Part shown: piece after piece, positions 10,389-27,188 of the stretch
Layout: each line of letters starts with the position of its first letter
Numbering within the stretch: the stretch's first letter is position 1
IMG/VR virus record: IMGVR_UViG_3300028376_000028
Span: 1 to 27,188 of that record
DNA length: 27,188 nucleotides
From: a virus
Direction: 5' to 3' (one strand)
Position numbers and translations under genes: made by a program
Notes under the pieces: model-generated
Told to the model about the DNA's origin: nothing
What the model saw: only the letters and a program-made list of their open reading frames with translations
Databases searched by the model: none

Positions 10389-10418
10389 GAGGTGCTCCGG
10401 GGAAGGGGAAGGGGTAGA

Positions 10419-10457
10419 GGTGAGGTGGTACAGGTGAGGTGGGGTGAGGTGGTACAG
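10419..10457 (-). repeat. Direct repeats in a pyrimidine-rich leader before the tail chaperone gene
   Basis: A 15-bp unit (CTGTACCACCTCACC on the mRNA strand) occurs at 10457-10443 and 10433-10419, with a third CCACCTCACC between. The mRNA from 10464 to 10395 is almost free of G, so it is probably unstructured. The complementary strand carries GGGG-AA-GGGG-AA-GGGG at 10399-10414, a possible G-quadruplex. Confidence 0.7.
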
Positions 10458-10464
10458 ATCGAGT

Positions 10465-10487
10465 CCCGGCCCGAGGACCGGACCGGG
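10465..10487 (-). other. GC-rich hairpin between major tail protein and chaperone genes
   Basis: CCCGGTCCG, a 5-nt loop, then CGGGCCGGG form a 9-bp stem (one G-U pair) about 60 nt downstream of the major tail protein stop. It is flanked by TCGAT on one side and CTCGAT on the other. No U-tract follows, so a classical terminator is unlikely; RNA processing, 3'-end protection or transcript attenuation between a highly and a weakly expressed gene would fit. Confidence 0.6.
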
Positions 10488-10544
10488 ATCGAATCCGTGA
10501 AATTGCGTTATTTAGGTTAGGCGTGAATTGGGTACGTTAGCCGA

Positions 10545-13686: not shown

Positions 13687-13738
13687 GATTGCTCTCCGTT
13701 GATCTGGTGTTCTCACGCAGGTCGATCTGTAGGGGGTG

Positions 13739-13759
13739 GGGAGGGAATCGAACCCTCCC
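13739..13759 (-). other. Hairpin with a T-loop-like sequence downstream of the capsid gene
   Basis: On the transcript strand GGGAGGG, loop TTCGATT, CCCTCCC form a perfect 7-bp stem 29 nt after the capsid stop. The loop matches the tRNA T-loop consensus (TTCRANN), and flanking TAGGGTG and CACCCCCTA can pair around it, giving a minihelix-like structure. There is no anticodon arm and no CCA, so it is not a tRNA. It may protect or end part of the capsid mRNA. Confidence 0.6.
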
Positions 13760-13787
13760 GTTATCCAATCACCCTAGTTGCTTCGGA

Positions 13788-20063: not shown

Positions 20064-20095
20064 CTATAGAGGTGGGTTACAAAAGGAATACCGAG
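20064..20095 (-). promoter_or_regulatory. 32-bp promoter-like element before the terminase operon
   Basis: The minus strand carries CTCGGT, then TCCTTTTGTAA, then CTCTATAG, in a 32-bp frame shared with two other sites (21723-21754 minus, 21987-22018 plus). It matches the 21723 copy at 23 of 32 positions with no gap. It lies between a strong terminator and the terS start, about 48 nt upstream of the ATG, so it is placed as a late promoter. The CTATAG end recalls single-subunit phage RNA polymerase promoters, but this is only a resemblance. Confidence 0.7.
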
Positions 20096-20103
20096 AGGGG
20101 ACG

Positions 20104-20147
20104 AAAAAACCCCCGATTAGGCGCAAAGGTATAAGCCTAATCGGGGG
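20104..20147 (-). terminator. Strong intrinsic terminator before the late operon
   Basis: A perfect 13-bp stem (CCCCCGATTAGGC with GCCTAATCGGGGG) with a 12-nt loop, followed on the minus strand by TTTTTT. It stops leftward transcription from the accessory genes just before the late promoter-like element and terS. Confidence 0.93.
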
Positions 20148-21675: not shown

Positions 21676-21722
21676 GTGGAGGCTCCTTTGCTTTTCAAAA
21701 TCGGAGCAACCATTGCCCCGCT

Positions 21723-21754
21723 CTATAGAGACATTTCACAAACGGATAACCGAG
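21723..21754 (-). promoter_or_regulatory. 32-bp promoter-like element before the accessory operon
   Basis: A minus-strand copy of the shared element: CTCGGT, TATCCGTTTGTGAA, then CTCTATAG. It differs from the plus copy at 21987-22018 only at positions 5 and 7. It lies about 48 nt upstream of the 101-aa gene's ATG, the same distance as at terS, and downstream of the terminator at 21926-21959. Equal spacing to two different genes supports promoter function. Confidence 0.7.
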
Positions 21755-21925
21755 ATCGGGTGGGTATTTTCACACCCCAAATGGGTCGAGGTCTGCAAGC
21801 ATTTGACCCGGTGGTTTTGCAGGCATAAACGGGTGATCGGGATTCAACCATCGTGATGGAGTGGATTCTAGACAACTCCGGTGACACCAAGACTCAGCTC
21901 TCTAAGGGTTGGGAGTCTCACGAAT

Positions 21926-21959
21926 AAAAAGAGGGAGCCCGGTTAAAGGCTCCCTCTTT
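21926..21959. terminator. Bidirectional intrinsic terminator
   Basis: A perfect 12-bp stem (AAAGAGGGAGCC with GGCTCCCTCTTT) and an 8-nt loop. On the minus strand it is followed by TTTTTATT, on the plus strand the stem itself ends in TTT. It separates the two outward-facing promoter-like elements. Confidence 0.9.
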
Positions 21960-21986
21960 GCTTCAAATTGCGCTCAGTCACCCGGG

Positions 21987-22018
21987 CTCGCTGATCCGTT
22001 TGTGAAATGTCTCTATAG
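21987..22018 (+). promoter_or_regulatory. 32-bp promoter-like element pointing rightward
   Basis: A plus-strand copy of the shared element (CTCGCTGATCCGTTTGTG, then AAATGT, then CTCTATAG). It is the only copy facing against the genes. A transcript from it would begin just before the 19-bp-stem hairpin at 22031-22088 and run antisense to the zinc-ribbon gene at 22172-22516. Confidence 0.6.
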
Positions 22019-22030
22019 AGGTCAGCGTAC

Positions 22031-22088
22031 TCAGCGAGAACCTCCGGGTCTGTATCCGCATGACAGTGTACCCGGAGGTTCTCGCTGA
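22031..22088. other. Very stable hairpin (19-bp perfect stem)
   Basis: TCAGCGAGAACCTCCGGGT pairs perfectly with ACCCGGAGGTTCTCGCTGA around a 20-nt loop in which CTGT and ACAG can pair again. There is no U-tract on either side, so it is not a standard intrinsic terminator. It lies about 13 bp downstream of the rightward promoter-like element and about 85 bp past the stop of the zinc-ribbon gene. An RNA hairpin, a protein-bound cruciform, or a single-strand origin-type element are all possible. Confidence 0.85.
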
Positions 22089-22852: not shown

Positions 22853-22944
22853 TGTTCTGAGAGGTGAATGAGTAACTGAGTAACTGTGATTGCACTGGGT
22901 ATCCCAGCAGACAACTGAACAAGTGTCAAGTGCCTTGTGGTTGC

Positions 22945-23264
22945 TGTTACAGGTGTGTTACGTCAAAAAGCGGGGTTGTTACAGACCTTGTAACAGCAAA
23001 TCCCCTAGCATTTACAAGGGGTTAAGCCTTGCTGTTACAAATGTTACAGATTCTGGGGGTAGTAAAAGAATATACTGTAAGAGGGGGTGTGTCCGTGGTT
23101 GGTTACGGCTGAGAGTTTATTATTTATTATATCTATTATTCTTGTAACATTTGTAACACCCCCCCTAAAATCGCCGTTTGGTAACGCCCACGGGCCGATT
23201 TTTGCTGTTACAAATGCTGTTACAAACCCGATCCGACTTGTAACAATTGTAACGATCTGTAACA
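22945..23264. repeat. Iteron-like array: 13 copies of TGTTACA / TGTAACA
   Basis: Forward units (TGTTACA) begin at 22945, 22956 (ending G), 22977, 23033, 23042, 23206 and 23218; inverse units (TGTAACA) begin at 22989, 23143, 23152, 23239, 23248 (ending G) and 23258. Many neighbours are spaced 9-12 bp, close to one helical turn. The array adjoins the end of the primase-helicase gene and surrounds an AT-rich stretch. Iterons next to a helicase-primase gene are the layout of phage and plasmid origins. Confidence 0.85.
23115..23140. other. AT-rich stretch inside the iteron array (possible unwinding element)
   Basis: Twenty-six bp with only one G and one C (GTTTATTATTTATTATATCT, then ATTATT), in contrast to GC-rich surroundings. 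It lies 2 bp before a pair of inverse iteron units. A DNA unwinding element is the natural reading. Confidence 0.6.
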
Positions 23265-23296
23265 AAAAGGCCGGACCCAACAAAAAGGCCGGACCC
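23261..23296 (-). repeat. Exact 18-bp tandem duplication of a terminator arm
   Basis: AACAAAAAGGCCGGACCC occurs twice in direct tandem. On the minus strand each copy gives GGGTCCGGCC followed by TTTTTGTT, that is the 3' arm plus U-tract of the terminator below. Confidence 0.92.
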
Positions 23297-23309
23297 TTAC
23301 GGTCCAGCC
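23281..23309 (-). terminator. Intrinsic terminator after the primase-helicase gene
   Basis: On the minus strand GGCTGGACC and GGTCCGGCC pair over 9 bp (one G-U) around a 5-nt loop, followed by TTTTTG, 28 nt after the primase-helicase stop. The second copy of the 3' arm and U-tract could form an alternative longer-loop terminator. Confidence 0.88.
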
Positions 23310-23336
23310 CCTTTGAATCCGCCACGGACTCGGTGC

Positions 23337-26449: not shown

Positions 26450-26632
26450 TCACCTCGTATAAGTCTCATCAAACGCCAGCTTTAGCTCACGTTCCCTATT
26501 TTCGCTGAGATCATTTTCCCGAATATCCCAGCCTGTCTTGCCTTTCACCTCTACCCTAGCTGTGTCGTCGCCGTAGACGATTCGCCACGTATCGGAGAGG
26601 TAGTAAAAATTAGTTTGCTTTTGCCTGTTCAT
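26450..26632 (-). CDS. Small hypothetical protein (60 aa)
   Basis: A 60-aa protein starting at ATG 26632 with GAGGAG 6 nt upstream. It has a YYLSDTWRIVYGDD beta segment, VEVKGKTGWD, and a helical charged end (RERELKLAFDETYTR). Its stop TGA lies 3 nt before the primase-helicase ATG, so it is co-translated with it. Its ribosome binding site is inside a hairpin. Function unknown; a replication accessory role is suggested only by coupling. Confidence 0.72.
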   Translation of the reverse strand: MNRQKQTNFYYLSDTWRIVYGDDTARVEVKGKTGWDIRENDLSENRERELKLAFDETYTR

Positions 26633-26637
26633 CTGTA

Positions 26638-26655
26638 GCTCCTCTCATGAGGAGC
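26638..26655 (-). promoter_or_regulatory. Hairpin covering the ribosome binding site of the 60-aa gene
   Basis: On the transcript GCTCCTC, loop ATGA, GAGGAGC form a 7-bp perfect stem whose 3' arm is the GAGGAG ribosome binding site, 5 nt before the start codon. Translation of this gene and the coupled primase-helicase could be held down until the hairpin opens. Confidence 0.7.
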
Positions 26656-26724
26656 CGAACCCGCTGATCTTCGCTTTCGTAAGTTAGCGTTGGTCGTGTG
26701 TCGTGAGCGGTTCAGCTCACAGTT

Positions 26725-26757
26725 AAAATAAAAAACCCACCTCCCGATTCGAGGTGG
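26725..26757 (-). terminator. Intrinsic terminator before the replication genes
   Basis: CCACCTC, a 7-nt loop, GAGGTGG, G, then TTTTTTATTTT on the minus strand. It ends transcription coming from the right, about 90 nt upstream of the 60-aa gene, and forms the 3' end of the structured RNA candidate. Confidence 0.85.
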
Positions 26758-26880
26758 ATTTGCGGGGTGATGACCGCTCTCGAATCAGGGGGTGGGTTCC
26801 GTGATACCGCCTCTGGAGAGACGGAAACTAGGATCCTATGTATTCACCAAATGGGCATCCACTGCCCGCGTCCTACACTA
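26725..26880 (-). ncRNA. Candidate structured RNA ending in an intrinsic terminator
   Basis: About 150 nt without a credible reading frame but rich in paired elements. On the minus strand from 5' to 3': GGGCA...TGCCC, the palindrome AGGATCCT, CCGTCTCT-CC-AGAGGCGG, then a 20-bp long-range stem (26798-26779 with 26753-26734; 18 Watson-Crick pairs, one G-U, one mismatch) enclosing GCGG...CCGC. The 3' arm abuts a T6 run. A competing 7-bp hairpin CCACCTC/GAGGTGG (26757-26737) uses the same 3' arm. No tRNA cloverleaf fits. It may be an independent small RNA or an attenuator leader before the 60-aa and primase genes. Confidence 0.55.
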
Positions 26881-26888
26881 AGAGCGTT

Positions 26889-27008
26889 CTACAAAACCAT
26901 TATCGACCCTACCCCTGCAGCGGGGGCTTGAATGGCCGAAAATAATTTCAAAATAGTTCGGTGGGCCGCTTTCTCTGTTAAGCCAGACCCTTCGATCTCG
27001 TTGCTCAT
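26889..27008 (-). CDS. Possible small peptide (39 aa)
   Basis: A 39-codon frame from ATG 27008 with GGAGAC 7 nt upstream. It encodes an amphipathic part (GLTEKAAHRTILKLFSAIQA) and a small hydrophobic end (PAAGVGSIMVL) before TAG. After the TAG the same frame stays open for 15 more codons (NALSVGRGQWMPIW). The good ribosome binding site favours a real peptide, but there is no family match and the size is small. Confidence 0.45.
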   Translation of the reverse strand: MSNEIEGSGLTEKAAHRTILKLFSAIQAPAAGVGSIMVL

Positions 27009-27070: not shown

Positions 27071-27188
27071 TTACTTGTCGATTTTATCTAGAATCCGGTC
27101 GATACCGTCACCATTATGACGAACCTGAATTTCAATCACGCCGAGTTGACTTTTCATTTCGGCAATATCCCTCTCGTTTTGAGTGATT
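27071..27188 (-). CDS. C-terminal end of a small coiled-coil protein (partial)
   Basis: The window edge cuts this gene; 38 codons to the TAA at 27071 are visible. They encode a heptad-patterned helix (RDIAEMKSQLGVIEIQV, then GIDRILDKIDK). This is like short coiled-coil phage proteins of the XhlA or tail/holin-associated kind, but those usually continue into a membrane helix, which is absent here. Function not assigned. Confidence 0.65.
   Translation of the reverse strand, partial: ITQNERDIAEMKSQLGVIEIQVRHNGDGIDRILDKIDK

Follow-up and report, generated by a model that had tools for sequence, protein, structure and literature searches.

The hairpin region near the right end of the window (the complete 27,188 nt IMG/VR record analysed here) is best read as an intrinsic (Rho-independent) terminator that insulates the phage replication operon and is redundantly built, a reading to which we assign a probability of roughly 0.6. 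The terminator would stop RNA polymerase that has read through the minus-strand genes located at the record's right end. Its 3' strand GAGGUGGG, beside a run of six U residues (U6), could be closed by the adjacent CCACCUC to form a standard 29-nt terminator, or alternatively by an upstream arm, ACCCACCCCCUGAUUCGAG, to form a hairpin of 61-67 nt. A G+C-rich stem would abut the U tract either way, and termination should not depend on the upstream arm being free; either hairpin should terminate because both end at the same U6. We infer that termination takes place at this site in the cell, that the arriving transcript is a late or lysis mRNA, and that the redundancy has been selected.

Genomic setting of the hairpin region

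The record derives from an uncultured tailed phage, and all of its convincing genes lie on the minus strand. Reading from right to left, the end of a frame cut off by the end of the record (stop codon near 27071) is followed by a 39-codon frame ending in Val-Leu-stop (27005-26887, minus strand), the hairpin region immediately downstream of it, a gene for a 60-residue protein (26632-26450, minus strand, ATG at 26632) and the gene for a DUF927-domain primase/helicase-type replication protein, assigned by domain match (26453-23337, minus strand). The 60-aa gene is the first past the terminator and overlaps the start of the replication gene; its product gave no family match, and the last 38 residues of the truncated right-end frame, used as a query, matched nothing. 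The hairpin region is the boundary between the preceding same-strand gene and the replication operon, which consists of the 60-aa gene and the gene for the DUF927 protein. Left of the DUF927 gene lie a TGTTACA-repeat region, small genes, and the genes for the terminase large subunit, the portal, the head and the tail, which continue to the left end. The repeat region (22941-23253), right after the replication gene, contains repeated TTGCTGTTACAAATG / TGTTACA elements in direct and inverted orientation and is a candidate replication origin. At 21721-22020, 42-nt inverted repeats (90%) beginning CTCTATAGAGACATTTCACAAACGG surround a 216-nt stretch with a strong terminator (21959-21928), an arrangement that looks like a small inserted element.

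Within 26725-26905, no open reading frame of at least 50 codons was found on the minus strand, and the longest stop-free stretch there, read by eye, has 43 codons without an ATG, GTG or TTG start. The suggestion of the preliminary description that the region is probably non-coding is supported by the folding and shuffling results below.

Near relatives of the phage were identified via TerL and the major head protein (L002, L004 and L036/L037, at ~89-94% DNA identity). These carry only the structural module, and all stop short of the hairpin region. A search with the DNA of the region in phages and plasmids returned nothing relevant. No relatives of the DUF927 protein, its conserved core, the 60-aa protein or the upstream frame were found in IMG/VR, and none of the DUF927 and 60-aa proteins in genome contigs. 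A pattern search for the hairpin arms gave 14 contigs, all unrelated. Elsewhere in the record, a tRNA-like remnant (13733-13775, minus strand), which separates the major head protein gene from the gene that comes next, has a D-loop-like ATTGG, a T-arm-like GGGAGGGTTCGATTCCCTCCC and matching acceptor-like ends; it is kept in L036 as GGGGTGATTGGTAGG...CACCCC, and ARAGORN called no tRNA on it. At 10389-10544 (minus strand), an intergenic block of ~75 nt is identical to L036 while its surroundings differ, and contains GGATTCGATCC together with a CCGGTCC...GGGCCGG hairpin.

Two hairpins predicted to compete for one 3' strand

The long hairpin (26736-26796, minus strand) was identified by folding, shuffling and its rank across the record. 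Its stem has 17 pairs and one mismatch (26796-26779 with 26753-26736), made up of 6 pairs (26796-26791 with 26736-26741), the mismatch and 11 pairs (26789-26779 with 26743-26753). Optional A-U pairs (26797-26798 with 26735-26734) and a small inner helix (26777-26774 with 26762-26765) add to it. The upstream (5') arm AACCCACCCCCTGATTCGAG (26779-26798, minus strand), recognised by sequence and folding, has a reverse complement that matches the 3' arm at 18/20 positions. The preliminary description had announced a 20-bp long-range stem; the stem is real, at the 17 pairs and one mismatch given above, and it is local, the arms lying 25 nt apart in a hairpin of 61-67 nt. The minus-strand segment 26732-26801 has a predicted folding energy of -38.3 kcal/mol, versus -20.3 (sd 3.0) for dinucleotide shuffles (z -6.0), with 0/200 shuffles as good, and the site ranks second among all 70-nt windows of the record on both strands. 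First in rank is 22031-22088 (minus strand; -43.1 kcal/mol, z -7.9), a perfect 19-bp inverted repeat with a 20-nt loop and no T tract after it.

Within the 3' arm of the long hairpin sits a short nested terminator hairpin, AAATCCACCTC-GAATCGG-GAGGTGGGTTT (26733-26761, minus strand), with 11 pairs and a 7-nt loop; alone it folds at -16.0 kcal/mol (z -4.2). The U tract TTTTTTATTTT (26725-26735, minus strand) is common to both hairpins, and RNA 3' ends are expected here. Its U6 (26735-26730) lies at the base of both, with the G+C base of the long stem at 26796/26736 and that of the short stem at 26758/26736; in both, A-U pairs extend into the U tract.

When the terminator was held fixed and the 40 nt upstream were shuffled, the strength of the long fold was reached in 0/2000 controls; when the long stem was kept and its pairs permuted, the strength of the short fold was likewise reached in 0/2000. 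Each pairing is non-random given the other. The preliminary claim of a long stem with a short terminator hairpin in the same 3' arm next to T6 is borne out by these controls and z scores.

At equilibrium, the long form has a probability of 1.0 and the short form 0.0 in every tested transcript that includes the whole 5' arm. Cutting the 5' arm away raises the probability of the short hairpin to 0.91-1.0, and the 5' arm alone is unable to form the short hairpin. The two 3' hairpins are thus mutually exclusive in the folding model, as had been proposed. For the growing chain, the predicted optimum is a branched upstream fold (to 26748) and then directly the long hairpin (from 26745); at no length was the short hairpin the predicted optimum, and the short form, when enforced, costs only ~6.5 kcal/mol.

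Comparison with intrinsic terminators

A stable G+C-rich stem is followed directly by a U tract in the direction of transcription, as in an intrinsic terminator. The element also resembles intrinsic terminators in lying between a preceding frame and the next operon, and differs from them in that its 3' strand has two alternative partners. With stem and U6 in gene orientation, the site is one of the strongest of terminator type in the early region, and other unit ends of this phage also carry strong terminators. For mapped bacterial terminators outside Streptomyces, median stabilities of -16.8 to -13.3 kcal/mol and stems of 20-28 nt have been reported (PMC12207403); at -16.0 kcal/mol and 22 stem nt, the short form agrees with these medians. 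In most species the median distance from stop codon to U tract is 38-57 nt (PMC12207403); here it is ~150 nt, longer than these typical medians, which counts against the terminator reading. The site lies ~90 nt past the stop codon of the same-strand frame, a position that also fits an ordinary 3' UTR terminator.

At 61-67 nt, with its 25-nt arm gap, the long form is above the usual 59-nt size limit of intrinsic terminators and may be less efficient at termination. Termination in a T7 polymerase reporter decreased when upstream sequence paired with the terminator stem (PMC8783025), so equal efficiency of the two forms cannot be assumed. The stretch from the terminator to the replication genes showed no recognisable promoter, and some read-through into these genes may therefore be needed. 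Regulation of such read-through is compatible with this.

The terminator after the DUF927 gene (23261-23312, minus strand) carries a tandem 18-nt duplication of its 3' half. GGGTCCGGCCTTTTTGTT occurs twice (23296-23261), each copy followed by U5, and one 5' arm pairs with either copy, at -27.8 or -28.8 kcal/mol. By these predicted pairings, the terminator is a second case of mutually exclusive terminating hairpins with a common arm, which fits redundancy better than switching. Slippage could have given rise to the duplicated GGGTCCGGCCTTTTTGTT copy.

Candidate promoters and the start of the replication operon

TTTTGTA-N6-CTCTATAG occurs exactly once in the record (20084-20064), ahead of the gene that lies just before the one for the large terminase, and L002 has it almost without change. 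At this locus (20064-20146, minus strand) TTTTGTAACCCACCTCTATAGCGGC comes after a strong terminator (20130 region) and ahead of the same gene, and L002 retains both almost unaltered; the TTTTGTAACCCACCTCTATAGCGGC site is a candidate late promoter. A degenerate copy of the phage promoter had been placed just upstream of the hairpin region and was rejected as stated. The pattern TTTTGTA-N6-CTCTATAG did not recover TTTTGTAGAACGCTCTTAG at up to 3 mismatches, the proposed copy has a different spacing and one base missing, and its TTTTGTAG falls in the Val-Leu-stop end of the 39-codon frame upstream. On the minus strand, no sigma-70-like site was found at the proposed position.

Past the terminator, the Shine-Dalgarno sequence GAGGAG of the 60-aa gene is buried in a hairpin, GGCTCCTC-ATGA-GAGGAGCT (26637-26656, minus strand; z -2.6), in which it is wholly paired with a probability of 1.0. 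It is plausible, given this predicted fold, that the hairpin exerts translational control on the first gene of the replication operon, and the buried ribosome-binding site would be a control point separate from the terminator. Just past the terminator, a TGTGAGC-TGAACC-GCTCACG hairpin or palindrome (26702-26721, minus strand; z -4.4 alone) is a possible operator; no second good copy of it was found in the record.

Alternative explanations

It is unlikely that the region instead yields a separate small RNA of the phage, ~120-160 nt long and ending at the terminator, which would either have a promoter of its own near 26890 or be cut out of the 3' UTR. It would base-pair with the 39-codon frame at its ribosome-binding region, or have its effect at another place. 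A non-coding stretch ending in a terminator is consistent with such an RNA. So is GTTTCCGTCTCTCC (26828-26815), which is complementary at 13/14 positions to GGAGAGACGGAGAC (27029-27016, before the 39-codon frame); pairing of this strength was seen in 2/200 shuffles and is predicted to form within the longer transcript, and the complementarity is suggestive only. In phage P4, the CI RNA, of the c4-type antisense class, lies in the replication-operon leader and has a segment complementary to the same transcript. The present region is like it in preceding a phage replication operon and in having a stretch complementary to sequence elsewhere in the transcript; unlike the P4 RNA, it has no Rfam match and a single complementary segment, over the ribosome-binding region of the upstream frame. 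The body of the supposed small RNA, moreover, is not structured beyond chance: outside the terminator, 26802-26890 gave a z of -0.6, with 51/200 shuffles as good, and what had been described as about 150 nt containing several hairpins is mostly one hairpin. Its proposed promoter is unsupported, with no sigma-70-like site there, and its best pairing to phage gene starts was equalled by 14/100 shuffled RNAs; pairing to gene starts, overall not beyond shuffles, was rejected. A search against the RNA family models of Rfam gave no match at the gathering score and only chance-level matches at a permissive threshold, which argues against a small RNA and a regulated leader alike. IsrK of prophage Gifsy-1 is a comparable phage-encoded RNA: it can fold in more than one way, its 3' end is a terminator with more genes beyond it, and further downstream a ribosome-binding site is buried (PMC4825925). 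For IsrK, the promoter has been mapped, two isoforms are known and targets have been tested (PMC4825925), whereas the element described here is known from sequence alone and is likened to it by description.

Quite unlikely, too, is a regulated leader of the attenuator or riboswitch kind, in which the operon is transcribed from upstream, the choice of hairpin sets read-through and the long stem is the poorer terminator. The likeness to an attenuator or riboswitch expression platform lies in two exclusive hairpins that compete for one strand before an operon. Each of the two is non-random given the other, and no promoter was recognised downstream of the terminator, both of which speak for such a leader. 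In an attenuator, the function depends on an alternative fold in which the U-proximal strand is withheld from the U-abutting stem. Here we see no such logic: the fold that competes with the terminator hairpin reaches the same U tract and is therefore not an antiterminator. Both folds end at 26736 next to U6, each setting a G+C-rich stem against it, and no antiterminator-type fold was found; the long form is the optimum both at equilibrium and in the growing chain, never the short one, and the region matches no known aptamer. The suggestion of an attenuator or riboswitch-like leader is not upheld by these results. That pairing with a terminator stem can lower termination (PMC8783025) does favour a regulated leader, as does a weak alternative branched fold (26775-26886, minus strand) with the closing helix CGCTCTT/GAGAGCG (26886-26880 with 26781-26775; CGCUCUU/GAGAGCG in the RNA). 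By competing for part of the 5' arm, this helix would keep the short terminator available; the z of its fold is -2.0 at best, for end points chosen once the fold was known, and -1.1 when the frame is extended by 10-12 nt on both sides. We consider it very unlikely that the closing helix picks, during transcription, between two unequal terminators on one U tract, with a protein or ligand tuning read-through into the replication genes and a further translational lock at the Shine-Dalgarno hairpin (26656-26637). The least probable of the readings considered is a DNA-level inverted repeat (a protein-binding site, or a recombination or packaging signal) with no RNA role. On the plus strand the same inverted repeat is of similar predicted stability (-40.1 kcal/mol), and the record has other long inverted repeats without a T tract after them (22031-22088; 21721-22020). 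However, T6 adjoins the stem only when the repeat is read on the minus strand, the way the genes run, and a DNA-level repeat would leave the extra short hairpin in the 3' arm unexplained.

Implications

If the reading as a redundantly built terminator is true, the element would be commonplace phage punctuation apart from one feature: in two terminators of a single phage, a shared arm gives rise to two exclusive terminating hairpins. It would also be a caution for sequence scans: two competing 3' hairpins are no proof of a switch, for which the alternative fold must also free the U-proximal strand.
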